From the IMG/VR virus record IMGVR_UViG_3300022750_000191, positions 1 through 39,833 of that record: 39,833 nt of DNA. One strand, written 5' to 3'. The notes under the pieces are model-generated. The model worked only from the letters and a program-made list of their open reading frames with translations. It was not told the DNA's origin and did no database searches. Positions 6,486 to 35,939 of the stretch are shown in pieces (positions within the stretch are counted from its first letter, which is position 1; each line of letters opens with the position of its first letter). The position numbers were made by a program, and so were the translations under genes. The stretch is from a virus.

Positions 6486-6842
6486 TTGATCAAAAAAGTG
6501 CTCATTTTATCTGGAGTAGGTGAACGCCTACGTGAAGAAAGGGATCGGCTGGGTTTGAACCAGACCGATTTTGGTATCGCTGCGGGTGTTAGCCGAGGAA
6601 CTCAGAAGGCGTATGAGCTTGAGTCAAGTTCGCCTGACGTACGTTACTTGACGGCTTTGCAGGGTATGGCTGTGGACGTTCACTTCGTCCTCACTGGCAG
6701 TCGGCACTCGATAGATGCCGCCAGCCTCAGTGAAGAGGAGTCAATGGTCCTCGACCAATTTCGCTCTCTTCCCGAGCATGACCGCGCTTCTGTCAAACGC
6801 CTCACGGGCGCACTCGCGGCTACTTCGCAGGTGAAGATGTAA
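6486..6842 (+). CDS. XRE-family prophage repressor (C-type)
   Basis: Lysogeny repressor candidate of 118 residues with an N-terminal helix-turn-helix (about residues 13-45: GERLREERDRLGLNQTDFG, then AAGVSRGTQKAYE), typical of XRE/CI proteins. No LexA-type autoprotease domain is present, so RecA-driven self-cleavage is not expected. The C-terminal segment 85-111 (containing FRSLPEHDRASVKRL) is likely the oligomerisation tail, and it resembles the core of the SOS-controlled microprotein at 7725. The start is uncertain: TTG 6486 and GTG 6498 both lack a clear Shine-Dalgarno site, and a GTG at about 6519 is possible. It is transcribed away from the early operon. Confidence 0.85.
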   Translation: MIKKVLILSGVGERLREERDRLGLNQTDFGIAAGVSRGTQKAYELESSSPDVRYLTALQGMAVDVHFVLTGSRHSIDAASLSEEESMVLDQFRSLPEHDRASVKRLTGALAATSQVKM

Positions 6843-6952: not shown

Positions 6953-7477
6953 ATGACTGAAGCGGAACTATTCACCTACTACGAAAAAATTTACTTTCAC
7001 GAGCACGGCCGGAAAGAGCAAATTTTCTCGCGCCTCAATATCCCTCTGGCTGTGATGGTAGCCATCGTTGGCTTCTATGCAGTGATCATTAGTAGCGACT
7101 ACAAGAGCTTGAGCTTGGATCCCGTAATCTGCTTCTGGGGTTTCTTTTGCTACTCAATAATCGCACTGCTGTTCGGTGCCGGCTTTTTCATCGATGCGTT
7201 GCTTGGAAAAATGGATCAGGGCATTCCAACGCCGAACGCTTTTGAGACGTGGAGACAGGATTTGCTAGCGTACTACCGAGAGGAACCAAATTCGGCTGAT
7301 ATCGTTGCCTCCGAGTTAAAGCGATCTCTTTATAAGGACTTCATGAATTGCGCGTCACTCATGACAGTGAACAATGACCGCAAGGCTTCCAGTCTTTACT
7401 ACTGCAATATCGCAGTAATCGTATCAGCAGGTTTTGCGGCGATTACCTACGCTATTGTCAAACTTCCCAGTCTTTAG
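6953..7477 (+). CDS. Three-TM protein, cargo module copy 1
   Basis: A 174-residue inner-membrane protein. Predicted membrane segments by eye are at about 29-46, 58-80 and 149-169, with a cytosolic loop of about 65 residues between TM2 and TM3. The N-terminus has YYEKIY (9-14). Just before TM3 lies a conserved-looking NCA-x4-VN-x2-R element (132-143). The same architecture and motifs recur in the 285-residue protein at 31702-32559, so the two are probably paralogues. The ATG at 6953 overlaps no other gene. It is followed 8 bases on by a proline-rich microprotein gene with its own GGAG site. The position directly after the repressor suggests expression in the lysogen. A role in defence or superinfection exclusion is inference; no named family is claimed. 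Confidence 0.75.
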   Translation: MTEAELFTYYEKIYFHEHGRKEQIFSRLNIPLAVMVAIVGFYAVIISSDYKSLSLDPVICFWGFFCYSIIALLFGAGFFIDALLGKMDQGIPTPNAFETWRQDLLAYYREEPNSADIVASELKRSLYKDFMNCASLMTVNNDRKASSLYYCNIAVIVSAGFAAITYAIVKLPSL

Positions 7478-7485
7478 GAGTAGTT

Positions 7486-7602
7486 ATGGCGCAAAAACCA
7501 CCACCACCGCCGCCACCGCCGACAAGGAACGTTCGTGGTGATGTCCGCCCGCCGCCTCCACCACCGCCGCCGCGAATGCCCCCAATCGTGCATAAGAAGT
7601 AG
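7486..7602 (+). CDS. Poly-proline microprotein, cargo module copy 1
   Basis: A 38-residue ORF with ATG 7486 and a good GGAG site 5 bases upstream, 8 bases after the membrane-protein stop codon. The product starts MAQK, then has eight consecutive prolines, a short TRNVRGDVR linker, eight more prolines and the tail RMPPIVHKK. It is basic and very probably extended (polyproline II). Such runs normally need EF-P for translation. The partner module at 31574 also has a small basic proline-rich ORF directly after its three-TM gene, which argues that this is a real gene and not a chance GC-rich repeat. It may bind the membrane partner; that is inference. Confidence 0.6.
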   Translation: MAQKPPPPPPPPTRNVRGDVRPPPPPPPPRMPPIVHKK

Positions 7603-7608
7603 ACTTGA

Positions 7609-7627
7609 GCCCGGCCCCGTGCCGGGC
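7609..7627 (+). terminator. Hairpin terminator after cargo module 1
   Basis: A perfect 7-bp stem, GCCCGGC with GCCGGGC, around a CCCGT loop, starts 7 bases after the stop codon of the poly-proline ORF. The following TTATTGATTT is a weak U-tract, so termination may be partial. It separates the repressor/cargo unit from the LexA-type promoter. Confidence 0.65.
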
Positions 7628-7661
7628 TTATTGATTTCTGACGCATTGGACCGTGACGTTG

Positions 7662-7702
7662 TTGGCAAAAATCGCGCTCCCGTGTACTGTATGCGCATAC
7701 AG
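7662..7702 (+). promoter_or_regulatory. Sigma-70 promoter overlapped by a LexA-type SOS box
   Basis: TTGGCA (7662-7667) and TACTGT (7685-7690) are spaced by 17 bases. Overlapping the -10 element is the perfect 16-base palindrome CTGTATGCGCATACAG (7687-7702), which fits the CTG-N10-CAG LexA consensus with the preferred TAT/ATA flanks. LexA bound there would block RNA polymerase until DNA damage. The first downstream gene starts at 7725 with GGAG 7 bases upstream. Confidence 0.8.
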
Positions 7703-7724: not shown

Positions 7725-7904
7725 ATGTTGTCGATACGGAAGGCGGAAAGCAGTCCCGCCCAAGAACAGCCACATTCTCGCCGATACATGTCTCGAAAAG
7801 AGCGTGTGCTGCTGCGATGGTTCCGCCGCTTAGGGAAGGAGGATCGTGCTCATGTCCTGCGTTTTGTGTCGGCGATGGCCATAACGAAGCTGCCACTTAA
7901 GTGA
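7725..7904 (+). CDS. SOS-controlled microprotein resembling the repressor's C-terminal tail (candidate antirepressor)
   Basis: A 59-residue basic protein. ATG 7725 is preferred over upstream in-frame starts because GGAG lies 7 bases before it and because it sits downstream of the LexA-type promoter. Residues 26-52 align without gaps to repressor residues 85-111: F-R-x-L-x-x-x-D-R-A-x-V-x-R is shared, and 12 of 27 positions are identical. It has no helix-turn-helix. P2-like coliphage 186 is SOS-inducible through the LexA-controlled antirepressor Tum, which is known from the family; this gene could be an unrelated functional counterpart that forms mixed oligomers with the repressor. The LexA site and alignment are seen directly, and the antirepressor role is inferred. 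Confidence 0.7.
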   Translation: MLSIRKAESSPAQEQPHSRRYMSRKERVLLRWFRRLGKEDRAHVLRFVSAMAITKLPLK

Positions 7905-7945: not shown

Positions 7946-9213
7946 CATGCCTGCGCGTTTTGCATTCTCTTCCATTCCCTCTCTGTCGCCCGTTTCGCTG
8001 TCTTCTCACTGGCGTACAACCACCTGAGCCGTTTGGGTTGTGACTGGTCGCCTGCAGTCACGGTCTTTTCCTTTCCAGCCTTGTCATCTCTGTAGTAGGC
8101 GATGATGCCGGTGTATTTGCCTGAGTTTTCCTCCGCCAAGTCTTCCACCGCGTCCTCTGGCAGTTTGCTTTCGAGATCGAGACTCATGGTGTAGCCACTG
8201 TCCGCGCTGAGGCTGTGCTGCACGTTGCCCCCGTACCAGATAATTTCATCAATCTCGGCCTTCACGCCCTGGAGCGTGTAGGTCTGTTCTGGGATCAGGT
8301 CCGGGCGGCCTCGAGCAAGCGTGTAGCTCAGGGTCGCGCTGCCACGCTGCAGGCGATTGAACTCGGCCCGGGCGGCACGTAAAGCAGACTGCTGATCGCT
8401 GTAGGTATGGCGCAGGTCCTTGAGGTTCTCACCACCGCCGGCAATGGCGTCCTGTTTCATGGCGCTGTTCACGTCGTAGTAATAGGCGCGCACACCGTCG
8501 TAGCTGTCGCGATCGGCTTGCAGGTACCGGTGTTGGTCACCATCGGTGCGGATCAACGTGATATGGGGCAATGCCAGGCCGCTGACGGTCTTGCCTCCAC
8601 CAGCGGGCATGCACAAGAGACATCCTGCTTTGACCGTTGCCACGGCATCGAACTCCTCGCCCAGGCGACTGATCAAGTTGGCATCCGACTCGTTGGCCTG
8701 GTCCAGCTGCAGGATGGGTAAGTCGCCCAGGGCTTCGGCGATTGTTGCCTTGAGGCCATTATCGCTCGCAATCGCGCCAAGCACTTTCGCCAGGGTTGTG
8801 TTGCTCCAGCTGCGCTCGCGTTTGGTCTTGAGGCCTTTGCGCAGGTCCGCTGATCGGGCGCGAATACTGAGCACGTCTGGAGCACCACTGTGCTCTGTTT
8901 CATCGACGGTGTACGTGCCTTTGTCGACCAGGCCGGTGTCGCTCCAACCTAACCACAAATGTAGGACGGCGCCCTTGGGCGGGATGGTCAGCAGGCCATC
9001 GTGGTCACTGAGCGTAATGCTGAGCTGATCGGCTTCAATGCCGCGGTTGTCGGTTAGCTCCAGGCTCATCAGTCGCGGACTGATTAACTGGGCGATGTCA
9101 TTGCCGTCGACGGTCAGGCGAAAGGCCGGTACCGGATAGATCGCGTCGCGGCCGCCTTGTTCCAATGCGCTTTTCACATAGCCTGTCACGCGGTCAATCA
9201 CTGCATCCATCAC
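7945..9213 (-). CDS. D: Tail protein D (baseplate hub, gp27-like)
   Basis: P2 gpD homologue of 422 residues, last gene of the tail operon. It should form the central hub on which the spike V and tube assemble, equivalent to T4 gp27 / VgrG N-terminal domains. The N-terminal half (PAFRLTVDGNDIAQLISPRLMSLELTDNRGIEADQLSITLSD) and the later ARAEFNRLQRGSATLSYTLARGRPDLIPEQT are characteristic of the late-control gene D family. It starts at GTG 9213 or ATG 9210, overlapping the stop of U, with a GAGAGG site upstream. The C-terminus has a basic helix (KRATEREWKRMQ). The call is secure from synteny and sequence pattern. Confidence 0.92.
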   Translation of the reverse strand: MMDAVIDRVTGYVKSALEQGGRDAIYPVPAFRLTVDGNDIAQLISPRLMSLELTDNRGIEADQLSITLSDHDGLLTIPPKGAVLHLWLGWSDTGLVDKGTYTVDETEHSGAPDVLSIRARSADLRKGLKTKRERSWSNTTLAKVLGAIASDNGLKATIAEALGDLPILQLDQANESDANLISRLGEEFDAVATVKAGCLLCMPAGGGKTVSGLALPHITLIRTDGDQHRYLQADRDSYDGVRAYYYDVNSAMKQDAIAGGGENLKDLRHTYSDQQSALRAARAEFNRLQRGSATLSYTLARGRPDLIPEQTYTLQGVKAEIDEIIWYGGNVQHSLSADSGYTMSLDLESKLPEDAVEDLAEENSGKYTGIIAYYRDDKAGKEKTVTAGDQSQPKRLRWLYASEKTAKRATEREWKRMQNAQA

Positions 9214-9650
9214 AGCAGCCCTCTCAGAATGTTTAACCCGGCGCCGGTGCTCGCCCCGAGCAGATCTACGCGGCCGTCGTCGACGCGTTTCAGGCTCAAG
9301 TTGAATTCGATGCGGCGTGCTGCGCCGTTGGGGAAAAAGATCGTTCTGGTCTCAGTCAGGCCTTCGATCACCCAGAGCCCGTAGAGCCGACCAGTGCCCT
9401 CAACCATGGGCCAGGCTTTGCCGGTGTCGGCCATCTGGCGCAGAGCATCAAGGCTCAGGACTGTACCGGCCAACTCCGGCAGGATGATGCCGGGGAGGGT
9501 AATGGCATCTTCGCCACGCCCTAGGAACTGCAGGGCTGGCTGGGCGCCTATCCGATTATTACCGGGATGGCGCCATTGTGTTTGGCGCTGCATTTCCTGG
9601 TACGCGGCTGTGTGAAGGCTGAAAACGAACATGCCGAGGGCGAGCATCAT
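9210..9650 (-). CDS. U: Tail protein U (tail terminator/completion)
   Basis: P2 gpU homologue, 146 residues. It begins MMLALGMFVFSLHTAAYQEMQRQTQWRHP, the usual start of the family, and contains EDAITLPGIILPEL and a C-terminal segment about the DLLG sequence. It acts at the head-proximal end of the tail. It is transcribed between T and D with 4-base coupling to D and a 6-base gap after T. Confidence 0.92.
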   Translation of the reverse strand: MMLALGMFVFSLHTAAYQEMQRQTQWRHPGNNRIGAQPALQFLGRGEDAITLPGIILPELAGTVLSLDALRQMADTGKAWPMVEGTGRLYGLWVIEGLTETRTIFFPNGAARRIEFNLSLKRVDDGRVDLLGASTGAGLNILRGLL

Positions 9651-9656
9651 GCGGGG

Positions 9657-12600
9657 TTACTCCTGGTCGGACAGTTGGCTGCGTTTGCGGGCGGACTTTT
9701 CCCGTTCAATACGGCTCAACTCGGCGCGAACAGCGCGGGCAACAGCCTGGTTATCCATGCCCGGGGTGGGATGGATGTTGATTTCGTAGTGGTCGTGACT
9801 GTCGTAAGTCACGGCTGCAGGAGCTGTGACGGGGGTTCGGTTGTCGATCTCAACGCTAGGTGTTGCTGCTGTGCCCATCGCCATAACAGGTGCCGCGATG
9901 CCACCCAGTGCCAAGGCGCCGGCGGCTGTGATTTGCTTGCCGAGGTTGGCCAGCGTCGCCAGAACACCGGCATCAGCCTCAGCTGGACCAGCCGTGGGTA
10001 CCACTGTCTGCACAACTTTGAACGGTGGCGTAACACCAGCAGCTTGGGCAACTTTGACTGGGTGAGCTGCAGCAGCGATTTGAGCCGCCTTGATGGGTTG
10101 TTTGCCGAGGTTGGCCAGTGTCGCCAGAACACTGGAATCGCCCTCGGAAGGGCTTACTGTGGGCGCTGCGGCCTGTACAGCGCTTAGCGGATAAGTAACT
10201 CCAGCAGCTTGAGCGGCTTTGACTGGTTGAGTTGCTGCTGCGGTTTGAGCAGCCCTGATTGGCTGTTCTACACCGGCCGCTTGAGCTGGGGTACGTTGCT
10301 CCCCGATTGGGGAGGGGCCGGCGATCGCATTCATCACGAATGTTCCCGCGCTGGTGAGCTGTTTGCTGATCCGTGCAACGGCGTCCAACGGCCCTTGTTC
10401 ACCCGATTGCAGACCCTGCGTCAGACCCGCCATGGTGAATCCACCCAGCTCAGCAAACACCCGCGAGGGGCTATGAATGCCGAGTTTTTCCTTAAACCAG
10501 TCGATGGTCGATCCGCCGATCGAGGTGATGGCTTCCTTGATTTGCCCTGCGCCGGCCATCAAGCCGTTGACCAGACCATTGACGATCATGTTGCCGAACT
10601 CGGTGAAGCGTGTCGGTAGGTCAACGCCGAGGTAGCTCAGTACACCGGCGAAAGCTTGGTAGATCAGTCCGATCGGACTGAAGTTGGCCAGATTAGTGAG
10701 AATGCCGTCGATGCCGCCGCTGAAGCCGGCCTGAATCTCGGTCCAGGCATTGGCGAAGTACTGCTTCACCTGGTCCCAGTTCTGGTAGATCAGGTAACCG
10801 GCACCGGCCAGCACAGCGACCACGGCGGCGATGGCCAGCGCGACGGGGTTCGCTGCCAGTCCCCACAGCGCGATGCTGACCGCCCGGATAGCGGTCACCA
10901 GACCACCGCCGAAGGCCACAGCCAGCACTCTCAGCAAGCCCAGCAGAGTGGGGATCTTCAGCCCCACCATGGACAACGCGAAACGCACGGCGAGGAAGGG
11001 GCCAAGCACGCCGGCAATGCCGAGCGCGACAACACCAAAACCGGCTGACAGGGCGGCAATGCCTGCCGCCACTTTGAGCAAGCCAGAGACCAGCGCGGGG
11101 TTCTGAGTGGCCCAGGTGTTCACCCGCTCAATAATGCGATTGAAACCGTCGACCAGTTCGATAAGGGTTGGCCGCAATGTTTCGCCCAGGGCGCTGCTGA
11201 GATTGAACAGGCGGTTTTGTGTCATCTGCCAACGGGCTGACAGGGTCACCGCACGAATGTCGCCCTCGCGTTGCATCGAGCCGCTGCCTTTGGTGCTGTT
11301 CACCAGCTCGAGTTGGCGCCGGTATTCGCCGATGTTGGCCGCGAGCTTTGCCGCGTCGTCGCCATACTCCTTGCCGAACAGCTCAGTCATAACGCCGAGT
11401 TGCTCGCCCTTGGGCAGCTTGTTCACCGCATCCAAAACCGTCTGGATGGTGCCGGTCGAATCTTTGGCCATGCATTCTTGCACGGCCTTCGCCTCGAGTC
11501 CAACGGCCGCCAGCCCTTGCTGAAACCGCTTGGGTTGCTGCGTTGCGATCGCCAGTTCGCGGATCATGGCGTTGGTGGCTGTACCCGCGACTTCTGCCGA
11601 AGCCCCCAGGGTCAAGAAAGTCGAGCCCAGCGCTGCTGCGTCCTTGAACGACATGCCCACTGAGGCGGTAATACCTGCCGTGCGCTGCATCACGTCGATG
11701 ATGTCGGAGCCTTTCGACATGGCGTTGTCGTCAAGGTAGTTGATTGCGTCGCCCAGCTGGCTGACGTTCTGAATGGGCAGCTTGTAGAGCTGGGCGATCC
11801 GCGCCAGGTTCTCGCCTACCTGATCGGCGGGCAGTTCGAACGCCGTGGCGGCGGTGGCCGCGACGCGGGCGAACTCGAGGAGATTGTCTTTACCCTGAAC
11901 GCCCATGCGCGCGCCGCCCTCAACGAGCGCGGCAATGTCGGTGGTGGCCATGGGGATGCGTTCCCCCATCTTTTTGATGGCGGCGCCCATGTCGTAATAG
12001 GTCTGGGTCAGTTTGCCGTTGTCATCCCGGGCACCGTCGACCTGCTTGGCGACACCAGCCATGGCGTCTTCGAAGCTCGAGTAGTTCTTCACCATCGCCA
12101 GAATCGGCAGCCCAGCTGTCGCACCGGTTGCGACAGAGCTGGCGCCCGCAGTTGCAGTGACGCCCACCATCTCTCTATTCCTGCCGAAGTTGGCGCGCAG
12201 TTTCGCTGCTCGGGCTTGCTGGGAGTTTAGGGCCGCCATGCGCTTGCTTTGGGTATCGATGCTGGTGTTGGCAGCGTCGATTTGGCTCTTGAGTTTGAGC
12301 TCGTGTGCGCCGAGGGCGTTGGTGTTGATTCCCGCTTGTTTGAGCTGTGCGGCTAGGCTGGCCAGCTTGGCTTTCTGCTGTCCGTACTGTTCGCCCAACC
12401 GTTTGGATTCGCCGGTCTGCTGGCGCAACAGGGCAAGTTGGGTCTTGTGCGGTTGCTCCAGCCGGCGGAGCTCTTCGCGCAGGTTGGCATGTCCTGCACG
12501 GGCGGAACGTAGCTGCGCATTGCCGGCGGTGTAGCGTTCGGAAAGGGTTTTTTCTTTGGCTGCCAGTTGGTCGAGCTCAACCTTGCGGGCTCGTTGAACC

Positions 12601-28715: not shown

Positions 28716-30473
28716 ATGAATGAAGCCGCCCACCCACCGATGGACCCTCGCCGCCAGGCCAAGTTTCTGTACTGGACGGGTTGGCGCGTCACCGATATTG
28801 CCGACTTCCTGAGCGAGAAAGAGAAAACCATCCACTCCTGGAAGGCCCGCGACGACTGGGACCGGGCGGACAACGTCGAGCGCATTGGCGGTGCACTGGA
28901 AGCCCGCCTGGTGCAATTGATCCTCAAAGAGGGCAAGACCGGAGGCGACTTCAAGGAAATCGACCTACTGCATCGGCAACTGGAGCGGCAGGCACGCATT
29001 CAGCGATTCCAGGGTGGCGGTACCGAAACCGACCTCAATCCGAAGTTGGCCGCGCGTAACGCCGAACCCAAAAAACAACCCAAGCGTAACGACTTCTCCG
29101 AGGAAGACTTCGAGAAGTTGGAAGAGGCTTTTCGAGACGGTTGCTTTGAGTACCAGCTTGACTGGTACCGGTCGATGAACCAGCGCACCCGAATGCTGCT
29201 CAAGAGCCGGCAGATTGGCGCGACTTACTACTTCGCCCGAGAGGCGTTGATCGATGCGCTTAAGACCGGGCGGAACCAGATTTTCCTGTCTGCCAGTAAG
29301 GCCCAGGCACACCAGTTCAAGAACTACATGCAGGCGTTCGTCAGCGATGTGCTGGGGCGGCAGCTGACGGGTGATCCGATCGTGCTGGCCAACGGCGCCG
29401 AGCTGCATTTTCTTGGGACCAACTACCGCACGGCGCAGGGCCGGTCGGGCAACTTCTACTTCGACGAATTCTTCTGGACCCACAAATTCGAAGAGCTCAA
29501 CAAAGTCGCTTCGGGCATGGCGCTGCACAAACACTGGCGAAAAACCTACTTTTCGACCCCGTCGAGCATGGCCCATGAAGCTTACAAACTGTGGACCGGC
29601 GAGCGTTTCAACAAGGGGAAGCCGACCGCCCAACACCTCAAGCTAGATGTGAGTCACGACGCGTTGGGGCAGGGCCGGTTGTGCGAGGACCGGATCTGGC
29701 GGCAGATCGTCACGATTCTGGATGCCGAGCAACGCGGCTGCGATCTGTTCGACCTAGAAGAGTTGCGCTTCGAGTACAACCCCGAGCAATTCGCCAATTT
29801 GCTGATGTGCCAGTTTGTCGACGACGGCGCCTCGATCTTCCCGCTGCAAATGCTTCAGCCGTGCATGGTCGATAGCTGGGTGGAGTGGGGTGAGGACTAC
29901 AAACCGTTCGCGGCGCGTCCCTTTGCCGATCGACAGGTGTGGGTCGGTTACGACCCGGCCGAAACCGGCGACAGTGCCGGGCTGATCGTGGTGGCGCCAC
30001 CGCTGGTACCGGGTGGCAAGTTCCGTGTGCTTGAGCGCCACCAGTTCCGGGGCATGGATTTTGCGGCGCAGGCCGAGGCCATCCGCCAGGTGACCAAGCG
30101 CTACTGGGTGACGTACATCGGCGTCGACGTGACTGGTTTGGGCAGTGGCGTGGCCCAGCTGGTGCGTCAGTTCTTCCCGGCAGTCACCACATTCAGCTAT
30201 TCGCCGGAAGTGAAAACCCGTCTGGTGCTCAAAGCCTACGACGTGATCAAGAACGGCCGTCTGGAGTTCGATGCGGGCTGGACCGACATGGCCTCCAGCC
30301 TCATGGCCATCCGCAAAACCATCACCGCCTCGGGGCGGCAATTCACTTATACGGCCGGACGCAATGACGAAACCGGTCACGCCGACTTGGCGTGGGCATT
30401 GTTCCACGCCCTGCACAACGAGCCGCTGGAAGGGCAGACCGCTGCCAACACCGGCATCATGGAGATTTGTTGA
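28716..30473 (+). CDS. P: Terminase large subunit P
   Basis: P2 gpP homologue, 585 residues. The N-terminal HTH (DPRRQAKFLYWTGWRVTDIADFLSEKEKTIHSWKARDDWDR, residues 9-50) is typical of gpP, then the ATPase core: LLKSRQIGATYYFAREALIDAL (variant P-loop, near 165-185), NFYFDEFFW with acidic Walker B residues near 245, and the RNase-H-like nuclease with VGYDPAETGDSAGLIVV near 410 (D residues). It drives packaging with M. A downstream ATG (28740) is an alternative start; neither has a strong ribosome-binding site. It overlaps Q by one base (TGATG). Confidence 0.95.
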   Translation: MNEAAHPPMDPRRQAKFLYWTGWRVTDIADFLSEKEKTIHSWKARDDWDRADNVERIGGALEARLVQLILKEGKTGGDFKEIDLLHRQLERQARIQRFQGGGTETDLNPKLAARNAEPKKQPKRNDFSEEDFEKLEEAFRDGCFEYQLDWYRSMNQRTRMLLKSRQIGATYYFAREALIDALKTGRNQIFLSASKAQAHQFKNYMQAFVSDVLGRQLTGDPIVLANGAELHFLGTNYRTAQGRSGNFYFDEFFWTHKFEELNKVASGMALHKHWRKTYFSTPSSMAHEAYKLWTGERFNKGKPTAQHLKLDVSHDALGQGRLCEDRIWRQIVTILDAEQRGCDLFDLEELRFEYNPEQFANLLMCQFVDDGASIFPLQMLQPCMVDSWVEWGEDYKPFAARPFADRQVWVGYDPAETGDSAGLIVVAPPLVPGGKFRVLERHQFRGMDFAAQAEAIRQVTKRYWVTYIGVDVTGLGSGVAQLVRQFFPAVTTFSYSPEVKTRLVLKAYDVIKNGRLEFDAGWTDMASSLMAIRKTITASGRQFTYTAGRNDETGHADLAWALFHALHNEPLEGQTAANTGIMEIC

Positions 30474-31480
30474 TGACCACCGATCTGGTTGAGGCGCTGC
30501 CCGCGCAGAGTCAGGCCCATGCATTCACCTTTGGCGATCCGGTACCGGTGCTCGATGGCCGCGAGATCCTCGACTATCTAGAATGCTGGTCGAACGGGCG
30601 CTGGTACGAGCCACCGCTGTCGCTTGATGGCCTGGCCAAGTCAACTCGGGCCAGCGTGTACCTGCAATCCGGGCTCAACTTCAAGCGCAATGCCCTGGCG
30701 CGGACGTTCATCCCGCACAAACTGCTCAGTCGTCAGGCCTTTGAGCAGGTCGCCCTGGATTTCATCTGGTGTGGCAATGCCTATCTGGAGAAGCGCGACA
30801 ACATGTTGCGCCAAGCCTTGGGGCTGTTGCCGGCCATGGCCAAATTTGTGCGCCGTGGCATCGAGGAGGGGAGTTACTTCCAGGTGCGTGGCTGGCGCGA
30901 CGAACACGAGTTTCGAAAAGACAGCATTTGCCACCTGCGGGAGGCTGACATCAACCAAGAGATCTACGGATTACCTGAGTGGTTGTCTGCGCTGCAGAGC
31001 GCCTTGCTCAATGAGGCGGCGACCTTGTTTCGACGCAAGTACTACCAGAACGGCAGCCACGCCGGCTTCATTCTCTACATGACCGACGCGGCGCAGAACG
31101 AGGACTTCGTCACGGATCTACGCGGCGCGATGAAGAGCAGTAAAGGCCCGGGCAACTTCCGCAACCTGTTCATGTATGCACCTGGTGGAAAGAAGGACGG
31201 CATCCAACTGATCCCGATCAGTGAGGTGGCGGCCAAGGATGATTTCGGTTCGATCAAGAACATCAGCCGTGACGATCTGCTGGCAGCCCTGCGCATTTAT
31301 CCGCAACTGATGGGCATTGTGCCGCAGAACTCCGGGGGCTTTGGTTCGATGCGTGAAGCCGCCCAAGTCTGGGGGCTGAACGAGTTGGAGCCGCTGCAGG
31401 CGCGCCTGCAGCAAATCAACGAGTGGCTGGGCGAGGAGGTTATTCGCTTCAAGCCTTTTGAGCTGGGAGAGGGGAAGTAG
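30473..31480 (+). CDS. Q: Portal protein Q
   Basis: P2 gpQ homologue of 335 residues, starting at ATG 30473 (MTTDLVEALPAQSQAHAFTFG), which overlaps the P stop; the longer ORF from 30392 would overlap P. Typical text: YEPPLSLDGLAKSTRASVYLQSGL, ALDFIWCGNAYLEKRDN-like, and the C-terminal PQLMGIVPQNSGGFGSMREAAQVW. It forms the connector ring through which DNA enters. Secure. Confidence 0.95.
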   Translation: MTTDLVEALPAQSQAHAFTFGDPVPVLDGREILDYLECWSNGRWYEPPLSLDGLAKSTRASVYLQSGLNFKRNALARTFIPHKLLSRQAFEQVALDFIWCGNAYLEKRDNMLRQALGLLPAMAKFVRRGIEEGSYFQVRGWRDEHEFRKDSICHLREADINQEIYGLPEWLSALQSALLNEAATLFRRKYYQNGSHAGFILYMTDAAQNEDFVTDLRGAMKSSKGPGNFRNLFMYAPGGKKDGIQLIPISEVAAKDDFGSIKNISRDDLLAALRIYPQLMGIVPQNSGGFGSMREAAQVWGLNELEPLQARLQQINEWLGEEVIRFKPFELGEGK

Positions 31481-31573: not shown

Positions 31574-31705
31574 TCATCGTCCCAGTGCTATCTCCCGATT
31601 GATGACTTTCTCGTTCACGATACGACGCACAACAGGCTCAGTAGGTTTTTTTGGCGGTGTTGGCCTTGTGGCTGTTGGCTTTGATTTACCAGCATCATTT
31701 TTCAT
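31574..31705 (-). CDS. Proline-rich microprotein, cargo module copy 2
   Basis: A 43-residue ORF, ATG 31705 overlapping the TGA of the three-TM gene (ATGA), so translationally coupled. The product starts MKNDAGKSKPTATRPTPPKKP, is basic and proline-rich in its first half, then continues TEPVVRRIVNEKVINREIALGR. The overlap and the parallel with 7486-7602 (three-TM gene, then proline-rich basic microprotein) are the evidence that this is a real gene too short for normal ORF calling. Its role is unknown. Confidence 0.6.
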   Translation of the reverse strand: MKNDAGKSKPTATRPTPPKKPTEPVVRRIVNEKVINREIALGR

Positions 31706-32559
31706 TTTGAACTCCGATTCGGGCCACCATTGACGTCATCGTACGTCATTCGTGACGGAGGTGCACTCGGCTTAACTGGAGCCTGCGGCTTTGGTTGTTG
31801 CTCGGTGTTACTGGTTTTTTTTGAATCGCTCAATTGGATTTCACCTGTTTCACGAAGAGCATTTTCTAAGATTATAGTTCTTTTTTCAAGATTCGCTATA
31901 ACGTCAACATTGGATGAAGTAGCTAGTTGGTTTTTCAAAGAGGCTATTTCACCGCCAACATAGCTATCTTTTATCGATAAGTTCTTCCGAGGGGATGAAG
32001 TATCCATATCAAAAATTACAAATAGCAAACTGGCGATGGCCAAGGGAACACACGCAAGCAGGAAACCAGCAAGCGCCTTGAAAACCCATCTGGAGCGCTC
32101 TTCGTTGACCAGCGCATTGTGAGTTGCGCAATTGATGTAGGTTTTTGAGATAAAGGCTTCGGTCTCTTTTTTAGGATCGATAAGTTCTACTTCATCGTCT
32201 GGTTCGACAGTAGTGTTGTATTGTTCAACATCAATATTGTATTGAACTTGTTCATCATAGTATTCTTGAACTTTTGAAGCATAGGGCATTCTGTTAAATT
32301 CAGATCCGCTAAAGGCTCGGAAGTTAAAGTAAGTTGAAAAGGCAGCGATAATTACCACAAGGCTTACAAGGAACGCGATAACGTAGGCGATGTCGGGTTT
32401 AACGGAGAAGTCCAAGAAGCGAGCAAGGTATACGGTTGTTGAAATTAGAATGAATATTGCTGTAAATATTAGTTGAGTTTTTATGCTTATACTGTCTTTT
32501 ATCTCCTCCTCGTAGGTGTACATTTTTTCATATGTTGAGTCTAAATCTACATTTGCCAA
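31702..32559 (-). CDS. Three-TM protein with coiled-coil and proline-rich tail, cargo module copy 2
   Basis: A 285-residue membrane protein, AT-rich relative to the phage. TM segments at about 28-47, 57-77 and 160-183. It shares with the 174-residue protein at 6953 the N-terminal TYEKMY (9-14), a YY-x-E after TM2, and NCA-x5-VN-x2-R (143-155) just before TM3. It has an extra cytosolic tail with a coiled-coil (about 207-245) and a proline-rich end (PKPQAPVKPSAPP). The start is TTG 32559 with AAGGA 8 bases upstream. It lies between Q and cos, where phiCTX is recalled to carry its cytotoxin gene. Role unknown; a defence, sensing or conversion function is inferred. Confidence 0.75.
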   Translation of the reverse strand: MANVDLDSTYEKMYTYEEEIKDSISIKTQLIFTAIFILISTTVYLARFLDFSVKPDIAYVIAFLVSLVVIIAAFSTYFNFRAFSGSEFNRMPYASKVQEYYDEQVQYNIDVEQYNTTVEPDDEVELIDPKKETEAFISKTYINCATHNALVNEERSRWVFKALAGFLLACVPLAIASLLFVIFDMDTSSPRKNLSIKDSYVGGEIASLKNQLATSSNVDVIANLEKRTIILENALRETGEIQLSDSKKTSNTEQQPKPQAPVKPSAPPSRMTYDDVNGGPNRSSK

Positions 32560-33390: not shown

Positions 33391-33715
33391 GCTGCGGGCA
33401 CAAAAAACCGCTCAATTGGCGGTCGTGTGCGCCTACGAATTATCTGACGCCAAGCCCAGGACTCTGGACTAACACCGACATGTGAGCCAAAGCGGTAGCG
33501 ATGCTAAGCCGTCAACCACTGAAGACGCCCACGAAGTAACCCAGCTCAGCAGCTGTTGCTGCCGCTCCTGAACACAATTCGTGCGCCCGTTTTTCGGACG
33601 CGCAAGGCCCACCGTGTTGCGACCCTCCCGCCCCGATGCAGTCTTTCATTTTCCGTGATCGAATCCTGAACGTGCCTGCGACCTGGCGGGAGTGAAACTG
33701 GGCCCGGCGCGCGCT

Positions 33716-33734
33716 GTCGTCCCCCCGCCACGCC
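33716..33734 (-). other. Candidate cos site
   Basis: On the minus strand the 19 bases read GGCGTGGCGGGGGGACGAC. Compared with the P2 cos sequence as I recall it, GGCGAGGCGGGGAAAGCAC, 14 of 19 positions agree, with a perfect GGCGGGG core. The position is right: between portal Q and the attachment site, in GC-rich noncoding DNA with several inverted repeats. The exact nick positions cannot be fixed from sequence alone. Confidence 0.6.
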
Positions 33735-33915
33735 TGCGGGCTAAATAGGGCGCTTTTTCTGCACGCCCCGCAGGTGCTGTCGCGCGGGCCTGGCTGGGCT
33801 TGCTCTGGCATTAATGGGGGAGAAAAAGCCTGCGAATCCCTGCGAGGGTAGCCCGTTTTGGAGATGTTGACTGGGGCGCAGTCTGGGGAAATTTTGAGAG
33901 GTGGCTCGGGAAAAG

Positions 33916-34185
33916 GGTTAGTTTTTAGAAAGGGGGAGGGAGGTGTTCTGGAGGCCCCATATTTGCTGGGTTTGAGGACTAACTTTGGAAGGTTAGTTAT
34001 GGTTAAGTTTGAGGTTAGCAAATCGTAAATTATTGATTTATATGAGTTTTTTTGTTTGGTTTTTAACAGTTATAAAGGTTAGGAAATTACCTATCATAAC
34101 CTTAAAGCTAACCCATGGCATCGACCGCAAAGCCGCGAAGGATAAGGCTTTCAGGGTGATTAGTAAAAAACTAACCTTCCTAACC
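33916..34185. repeat. Cluster of GGTTAG / CTAACC repeats (candidate replication origin)
   Basis: Within 270 bases the hexamer GGTTAG occurs on the plus strand at 33916, 33991, 34013 and 34077, then on the minus strand (CTAACC) at 34108, 34171 and 34180. Near-matches are GGTTAA at 34001 and CTAACT at 33979. The direct-then-inverted array flanks an AT-rich stretch (about 34018-34075). Iterons next to an AT-rich region are typical of origins for initiator/primase proteins such as P4 alpha. No P2 gpA nickase gene is present, so the primase-helicase at 1929 may act here. The assignment as origin is inference. Confidence 0.5.
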
Positions 34186-34730: not shown

Positions 34731-35939
34731 TTATAGGGTCGATATGGCTGGAGGAGTATTAGCTTGCGTAAGGCCCATAAATAAGTGGGTTACCGTATCG
34801 TAATCAATGATTTGAAGGTTGGGTAGCAGTCTGCCTGCTTGTGAAACTTTAGCTGCGTCAAAATTCTCGTAATTCCCAACGATTAAAACTAAATTTGGCT
34901 CGCTGACCACTACGCCATATTTTTCCAGTGCATGTTTTGCATTTTTGGGGTAGCTAAAATATTCCAAATAGTTCCCTAGTTGAGCTACTCCGTCGCGGAC
35001 TGTATCAACAAACTGCCGTCTCTTACGATCAGAGATTGTAAGGCTTGGTTTCGTCAATAATGCTGTTTTTAGGTCGTAGATGTCATAGGTACCGTCTTTG
35101 CGCCGTACAAGCAGATCGGGGTTGATAGCTGTATCTTCGCAAGTGCCGTCATGTTCTTTCCAATCGAGAGACGGCTCGTAGATAAAATGATCAGTGTCAA
35201 ATGCTCGCTTGATTATATCAGGGTGTAGTCTGATAAATTCTCCGATTGTCGTTTCCCTCAGTCCATGGAATAAGAACGTGTTTTGAAGTTGGCTGGCCAC
35301 ATACTTTCGCTCCTCGATATCCCCCTCAAATCTACGGACTCCTCGAACGTCCTCTCCGTCAATAAAATATTCACATTCTTTAATTAGTGCCTTTTTGGTG
35401 AGCTTGCTTGAGAAAACAAATAGGCCCAGTATGAATTTGGCTCTGGTGGCTAGCTCATTTTTATTGATAAGAACAACATTGTGAAGTGCGCAAGATGTGA
35501 ATTCTTCGCCAAAGGAGAATAAATTGCTTGTGGGTTTCGAGCAAACCATCGTAGTTTCGTACATTTCTAAGGCAGGAAATCTTTCAATAGTCCCTTCGAG
35601 ATTTATATCGCTCGCAATGGTAACGGTGTCATATACCACGCCGCGTGAATTGAAGTGGATGAAAGAGGTGTCCCCTCGGGTGTGATCGTCAAACTGCCTA
35701 AAGTACCGATTAATCGACGGTTCATTGTGAGTTTTAAGCTTCAGTCCTGTATAAGTTTTAGACGCGCCCATGAGTTCTGCGATATAGTAACCATTGCAGT
35801 TTGTTAATAATAATATGTTTGGGTATAAAATAGTCGCATTAGCAGGCTCAAGTCTGCCAGCTTTTTGCTCATTTGATACATGCTCGAAATAACTGCCCCA
35901 GAACTCTTTAATTATATCCTTAAACTTATCAAACAACAT
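34731..35939 (-). CDS. Shedu-like (DUF4263) PD-(D/E)XK nuclease, candidate antiphage protein
   Basis: A 402-residue AT-rich cargo gene. The C-terminal third has a restriction-endonuclease-fold pattern: D275 in NPDLLVRRKDG, then D289-L-K291 in DIYDLKTALL, and Q320-x3-Y324 in AQLGNYLEY. This order (acidic, then D-x-K, then Q-x3-Y) is that of the Shedu SduA nuclease family, single-gene antiphage systems with variable N-terminal sensors. The N-terminal 200 residues are alpha-beta and unrecognised. The gene lies alone between cos and att, equivalent to the P2 tin/old cargo region. The ATG at 35939 is followed by AAATTT-rich AT-biased codons, unlike the phage core. The nuclease fold is fairly likely; Shedu membership and a defence role are inferred. 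Confidence 0.6.
   Translation of the reverse strand: MLFDKFKDIIKEFWGSYFEHVSNEQKAGRLEPANATILYPNILLLTNCNGYYIAELMGASKTYTGLKLKTHNEPSINRYFRQFDDHTRGDTSFIHFNSRGVVYDTVTIASDINLEGTIERFPALEMYETTMVCSKPTSNLFSFGEEFTSCALHNVVLINKNELATRAKFILGLFVFSSKLTKKALIKECEYFIDGEDVRGVRRFEGDIEERKYVASQLQNTFLFHGLRETTIGEFIRLHPDIIKRAFDTDHFIYEPSLDWKEHDGTCEDTAINPDLLVRRKDGTYDIYDLKTALLTKPSLTISDRKRRQFVDTVRDGVAQLGNYLEYFSYPKNAKHALEKYGVVVSEPNLVLIVGNYENFDAAKVSQAGRLLPNLQIIDYDTVTHLFMGLTQANTPPAISTL

Follow-up and report, generated by a model that had tools for sequence, protein, structure and literature searches.

A two-part, horizontally mobile module, in which a membrane protein is followed by a small proline-rich partner, was found in mobile and defence contexts in several bacterial phyla, and two of its members lie in the DNA studied here. 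On balance, we read the module as an uncharacterised anti-phage or superinfection-exclusion system, formed by a three-helix inner-membrane protein and a basic polyproline microprotein. The DNA, referred to as the window, is the IMG/VR virus record IMGVR_UViG_3300022750_000191 in its full length of 39,833 bases. Its PHROG matches to a portal, a terminase, a tail protein, a CII-like activator and a primase fit a P2-like prophage, and the relatives of the two modules point to Pseudomonas as the host. The features of both modules are collected in Table 1; family loci are referred to by numbers with the prefix L.

Table 1. Features of the two modules and their flanking genes in the window
Feature	Position	Strand	Basis
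HTH repressor-like gene, co-directional with module 1, 110 nt upstream	6486..6842	+	PHROG transcriptional regulator / repressor
TM1, 174-aa membrane protein, phrog_36961 family	6953..7477	+	translation
mp1, 38-aa basic microprotein MAQK-P8-TRNVRGDVR-P8-RMPPIVHKK	7486..7602	+	translation
Terminator-like hairpin, immediately 3' of mp1	7606..7630	+	consensus match only
Portal gene (gpQ)	30392..31480	+	phrog_68 portal, E 2e-152
mp2, 43-aa basic microprotein MKNDAGKSKPTATRPTPPKKPTEPVVRRIVNEKVINREIALGR	31574..31705	-	translation
TM2, 285-aa membrane protein, TTG start, Pro-rich C-terminal tail	31702..32559	-	translation

Two modules of one membrane protein family

The first-pass annotation had described two membrane genes, each followed by a small ORF. 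Rechecking of the open reading frames returned both pairs, with 8 bases between TM1 and mp1 and an ATGA overlap between TM2 and mp2, and translation gave the annotated lengths of the two microproteins together with the paired eight-proline runs of mp1. An AGGAG was present upstream of mp1, in the gap behind TM1, and the hairpin after mp1 has a perfect, GC-rich stem of 8 bp (7608-7615/7621-7628). TM2 was found to end in a proline-rich tail, KPQAPVKPSAPPSRMTYDD, which the annotation had not recorded. The repressor-like gene upstream of module 1 matched HTH_31 weakly, and a related gene occupies the same place in L004 and L006. Since module 1 lies behind this gene on the same strand, as it does in those two loci, the lysogen probably expresses it, starting on the side of the repressor. 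Beyond module 1, a perfect CTG-N10-CAG palindrome, CTGTATGCGCATACAG, similar to a LexA/SOS box, was observed on the plus strand at 7687-7702, 22 nt before a 59-aa ORF (7725-7904, plus strand) beginning MLSIRKAESSPAQEQPHSRRYMSRKERVLLRWFRRLGKEDRAHVLRF; a stretch similar to the palindrome and this ORF was also seen 3' of module 1 in L003-L005.

The two membrane proteins had been taken as relatives, and profile comparison supported this. Both were recovered by a six-frame search of the record, and both belong to phrog_36961 (PHROGs v4), whose profile matched most of each protein with E-values of 8.4e-8 (TM1) and 8.9e-16 (TM2). The hhalign comparison of the TM1 and TM2 profiles, made without the bridging Photobacterium protein, gave a probability of 97.5% and an E-value of 7.5e-12 over 163 columns, and the Photobacterium protein itself bridged both (E 8e-7 and 3e-25). 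Plain BLASTP of TM1 versus TM2 was not significant (E 0.14), and the homology is therefore established by phrog_36961, hhalign and the Photobacterium bridge instead of by pairwise BLASTP. The phrog_36961 entry carries neither a function nor a named microprotein partner, whereas the set assembled here reaches several bacterial phyla.

Among the motifs proposed as common to the two proteins, YEK-x-Y was present at residues 10-14 of both, and NCA...VN..R aligned TM1 to TM2, its N being invariant or nearly so throughout the family. The YY-x-E copies did not align with each other and formed no family motif; on the alignment and on family conservation, this resemblance was attributed to chance and rejected as a homologous feature. 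In the N-terminal part, Y10, E11, K12, Y14, F15, E17 and R27 were invariant or nearly so, as was N141 in the central helix. The annotation had also regarded the modules as paralogous copies. In the tree, TM1 and TM2 fell into separate clades, each with a support of 1.0 and each with relatives from outside the window, and duplication within the phage was rejected on this basis. TM1 grouped with proteins of further P2-like phages and of Pseudomonas-group loci (L004, L006, L040, L049 and L037), and TM2 with L007, L104-L106 and L113; its relatives L007 and L008 were 86% identical to TM2. The simplest reading of these separate, supported clades is that modules 1 and 2 were probably acquired separately, in two independent events.

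AlphaFold2 predicted TM1 to be all-helical, with a mean pLDDT of 91.8 and a pTM of 0.76. The modelled helices span residues 3-27, 29-47 (first transmembrane helix), 55-84 (second transmembrane helix) and 94-107, followed by a long helix at 114-173 which includes the third transmembrane segment. Foldseek searches with the membrane protein model gave no significant match (best E 0.54 in the PDB and 0.24 in BFVD). The best VIA-align results, with Z of 11.0 and 11.7, were unrelated soluble helical bundles within the range stated for helical models, and the best match of a sequence profile search of the PDB was a kinetochore protein over 69 positions (E 0.02). Searches of Pfam, NCBIfam and PADLOC linked the module proteins to no named family, and none of the four proteins matched the HMMs of PADLOC-DB 2.0.0 up to E = 1. 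The identities STING_TM, 7TMR-DISM, T6SS ExIF and UBP were rejected, their scores being far under the curated cut-offs. For SLATT (SMODS and SLOG associating 2TM effector), only TM2 gave a match, to NCBIfam SLATT_1, with 12.7 bits against a cut-off of 41 (E 0.09), and Pfam SLATT gave none. Two N-terminal transmembrane helices and a helical part are common to SLATT and the module, whereas the third transmembrane helix and the polyproline partner belong to the module.

The polyproline microprotein and its arrangements

The pairing of the membrane gene with a downstream proline-rich ORF held at nearly all homologous loci and failed at L044, L121, L122 and L127, absence being judged only where the sequence sufficed (L030 and L039 end at a contig edge). 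Three of these four partnerless loci are distant members that lie within an integron or a type I restriction operon. Of the 62 non-redundant family loci, 41 had a small ORF with five or more prolines in a row downstream of the membrane gene, versus none of 488 other ORFs taken from the same and control regions (Fisher p about 1e-46); with in-frame tails added, 47 of the 62 loci carried such a proline run. Several of the remaining loci had softer proline-rich versions (L007, L018, L104-L106, L113, L116 and L128), and in L033/L124 the proline-rich ORF overlaps the membrane gene and starts further upstream than the scan range.

We found that mp1 differed from its counterpart in L003, the closest relative, by 7 synonymous and 0 replacement differences, from that in L004 by 17 and 2, and from that in L006 by 19.5 and 3.5. 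In the comparison with L006, the replacement rate of mp1 (0.042) was about a quarter of that of TM1 (0.153). Judged by these substitution patterns, mp1 is a real gene under strong purifying selection. It was kept in L003-L006, L037, L040 and L049, and mp2 was kept in the phages L007 and L008 and in the chromosomal loci L104-L106 and L113. Most microproteins carry a run of 7-10 prolines near the start codon, and their common signature reads polyPro-x-R-x-[VI]-[RK]-[GED]-x-V. Behind the prolines of the 63 scorable peptides, a few of those listed being visibly chance ORFs, R-x-[VI] was present in 51, [RK] in 47, [GED] in 48 and, after one free position, V in 33. The signature was complete in mp1 (P8-TRNVRGDV); mp2 has a broken proline run and the related EPVVRRIVNE, which is conserved within its own clade. 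A comparison with Rz/Rz1 spanins was rejected upon reading the sequences, since mp1, mp2 and their relatives lack a hydrophobic signal and a lipobox cysteine; they open with a short polar stretch that leads into the prolines.

The modules were arranged in five architectures. A membrane gene followed by one free microprotein is the form of module 1 and of most Pseudomonas loci; two free microproteins follow it in L027, L029, L034 and L128, and three tandem ones in the P2-like phages L017-L019 as well as in E. coli prophages. In window module 2, as well as in L022-L026, L031, L032, L048, L011, L020 and L116, the membrane protein bears a fused proline-rich tail and is accompanied by a free microprotein, and in L013, L114, L118, L120 and L028 there is a fused tail only. 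The fused forms have an in-frame start codon immediately before the tail, and a Shine-Dalgarno-like site preceded 10 of 14 tail starts versus 16 of 206 other internal ATGs (p about 7e-8). The pattern agrees with fusion of a microprotein gene to the membrane gene, its own start being retained. Nested translation of the tail may accordingly occur in these forms, or the codons conserved there could instead serve the protein sequence. When the naturally tailed L032 protein was modelled with AlphaFold2, the tail (pLDDT about 43-69) was not docked confidently on the membrane protein. Two of the three E. coli microproteins are missing from the RefSeq annotation.

Mobile elements and defence genes around the module

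The module occurs sporadically across genomes. Scanning genome contigs with an alignment query yielded 32 loci in Gamma- and Betaproteobacteria, Magnetococcales, Desulfobacterota and Campylobacterota; TM1 as a single query gave no match in the same contigs. Whole-genome searches found the family in 21 of 399 Pseudomonas and 11 of 228 Vibrio genomes, in 5 of 247 genomes of the family of Aliiglaciecola and in 2 of 141 of the order of Geomonas, and a wider class sample gave 1 of 369, the sole match being the query genome. Together, relatives were found in Pseudomonas, Vibrio, Alteromonadales, E. coli prophages, Gallionellaceae, Magnetococcales, Desulfobacterota and Campylobacterota. Searches of GenBank phages by tblastn with TM1, TM2, L016 and L017 as queries found no relatives.

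According to PMC9122126, the cos-proximal interval from the portal gene gpQ to the replication gene gpA is a defence hotspot of P2-like phages, and the systems described there include a three-gene one with 'no clear predicted domain'. Module 2 lies directly beyond the portal gene, on its distal side, and the homologous E. coli module is located exactly between gpQ and the replication endonuclease of P2 prophages, a gene order that places both among P2 hotspot cargo. They thus share a hotspot with the P2-type exclusion cargo (old, tin and the gpQ-gpA systems), and the module has no PADLOC or Pfam match to the named systems. Several ORFs between 31700 and 39800 of the window had no Pfam or PHROG match (e.g. 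33512-34021 and 34731-35939), and those between module 2 and the contig end are possibly further hotspot cargo. In L016, the module was seen by eye among tail- and baseplate-like genes.

Integron attC repeats flank the module in L011 (four copies), L013/L117, L114, L116, L120 and L122, which include Photobacterium and Vibrio, and similar repeats were recognised by eye around the Alteromonas module L033. On P. syringae plasmids the module stands beside an integrase. In a plasmid of P. syringae pv. actinidiae (L010:4080-4130), the membrane gene apparently carries a frameshift when compared with the intact L009 copy, and the L010 microprotein is still open with a longer proline run. Chromosomal copies were also found beside housekeeping genes (L026, L028, L030, L031 and L051).

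Many neighbours of the module are defence genes. Pairs of a ThsB_TIR gene and a caspase gene adjoin it in Campylobacterota and Pseudomonas (L035:2900-4274, L037:4589-5979 and L108:7976-9348), and type IV Thoeris is likewise composed of TIR and caspase (PMC12847820). Type IV Thoeris, with its ThsB TIR and caspase-like effector, is a neighbour in three loci of two phyla and not a homologue, as the TIR and protease domains are missing from the module. A caspase-EAD1 neighbour was found in L097, and in L107 (3797-6790) a caspase domain and a DEAD/DEAH helicase are joined in one protein of 997 aa. L103 has a CBASS operon on the opposite strand (8283-12065), with a patatin effector, a DncV-like cyclase and an E1/E2 fusion. 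An Eco57I restriction enzyme lies 1 nt upstream of the module in L029, an AbiU2 HEPN gene adjoins L128, and the neighbour of L048 is a weak AbiJ match. HsdR type I operons hold the distant membrane homologues at L121:7010-7579 and L127:6977-7549, the latter also with SIR2; these two have no polyproline partner and overlap their operon neighbours by 4 nt.

The 150 nearest neighbours matched 426 PADLOC families versus 15 for 147 control ORFs, many of the 426 being overlapping restriction models, so that the actual defence genes are fewer. As direct neighbours, caspases were counted in 5 of 150 versus 0 of 147 (p = 0.06). Caspases are rare in Pseudomonas, with 23 matches in 119 genomes or about 0.19 per genome, and four near about 20 Pseudomonas loci are therefore far above chance (p about 2e-11), in a test that presumes an independence which the clustering of defence islands violates.

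Proposed function and alternatives

From the anatomy of the module and its associations we infer that it is likely to serve defence or exclusion. The interpretation offered by the first-pass annotation was retained as far as it concerns an unnamed two-gene family, whose genomic surroundings speak strongly for a part in phage defence or exclusion, and was dropped with regard to the duplication and YY-x-E. The specific mechanism that we put forward, more tentatively, is that the microprotein restrains a membrane effector. The membrane protein would act at the inner membrane by ion leak or by blocking DNA entry, and the free microprotein would be its regulator, the polyproline II helix and the RxV[RK] motif keeping the effector inactive. 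Upon infection, the microprotein would be lost or titrated, altering control of the effector. The microprotein would be supplied by one to three free copies, by a tail of the membrane protein, or by both; the lysogen would express module 1, and module 2 would be carried as P2-type hotspot cargo. The microprotein shows stronger conservation than the membrane protein and is frequently multicopy, which suits an inhibitor or sensor over a structural subunit; these two traits and its own Shine-Dalgarno sites favour an independent partner. It is conceivable, at a similarly tentative level, that the module stands for a new class of defence module, whose regulator is one polyproline peptide (polyPro-x-R-x-[VI]-[RK]) in three forms, namely free, as a tandem set and as a nested tail remade by internal initiation.

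Phage-defence modules with small membrane effectors are already known as a kind. RexAB is likewise a two-gene prophage system, whose proposed effector is a small membrane protein with several spans, and is comparable in its way of working only. It has no database match to the module, and RexA is a much larger protein and not a 40-aa polyproline peptide. The positive-charge bias of the membrane protein suggests an N-in, C-out topology. With this topology the fused tail would be periplasmic and the free, signal-less microprotein cytosolic, so that a common binding site is not obvious. This predicted conflict between tail and free microprotein still stands as the main weakness of our proposal. 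Other points that weigh against it are the lack of a match to any known defence model, the chromosomal copies beside housekeeping genes, the four partnerless loci, the unconfident placing of the L032 tail and the p of 0.06 for caspases as direct neighbours.

The same topology would suit superinfection exclusion only, in which the membrane protein blocks DNA injection or masks an inner-membrane injection partner without killing, and the polyproline element, be it a periplasmic tail or the microprotein, is part of the block. Small inner-membrane prophage proteins are the classic form of exclusion, such proteins including T4 Imm, HK97 gp15 and Sie2009, and module 1 runs in the same direction as the gene of the lysogenic repressor. 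However, many members lie outside recognised prophages, some in integron cassettes and others near genes of TIR-caspase, CBASS and restriction systems, and free microproteins without a signal peptide are conserved at most loci, which makes exclusion as the sole function rather improbable. Maintenance of the mobile element rather than defence would be the role if the membrane protein were a toxin and the microprotein its antidote. The two genes are tightly coupled, their overlaps ranging between ATGA and 59 nt, and the small partner is often present more than once; the module resides on plasmids, integrons and prophages, and toxin-antitoxin genes occur near Vibrio and P. syringae loci. We consider this somewhat less probable again, because the microprotein of L013, L114 and L118 is only a tail, from which a separable antidote could arise only via internal initiation, and because the strong association with defence effectors would be unexpected under pure maintenance.

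That association could also mean that the module is no system of its own and anchors or modulates neighbouring effectors such as caspases, restriction enzymes or CBASS. An accessory role agrees with the direct, operon-like placement of the module in L029 (1 nt), L037 (21 nt) and L097 and with the overlaps within the hsd operons of L121 and L127. The type of neighbour is nevertheless not constant, the window and most loci have no adjacent effector, and some integron cassettes hold the module and little else, leaving such a role doubtful. The least probable of these readings, in our judgement very unlikely, is a translation sensor, in which the prolines form an EF-P-dependent stall, the peptide itself is of little importance, and failed translation during infection signals translational stress to the membrane gene. 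Long proline runs require EF-P, and the position of the runs close to the start would suit such a sensor. Yet RxV[RK][GED]xV is conserved behind the run and replacement changes are rare; moreover, mp2 and L018 have broken or short proline runs and still keep the conserved part that follows.

In the literature we found no paper on such a polyproline partner; as supplementary tables and most preprints were outside the scope of the search, an earlier listing is possible. If the module is a defence system, it has been overlooked by present tools, its partner of about 30-55 residues being under the usual limits of gene calling. The pair of module 1 needs about 0.7 kb and is thus directly clonable. 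A polyproline ligand that is conserved and comes in nested and tandem copies would be an unusual bacterial regulatory device. If the reading with three forms is true, a membrane effector in bacteria would be governed by a proline-helix ligand, by a logic comparable to that of eukaryotic proline-motif signalling.
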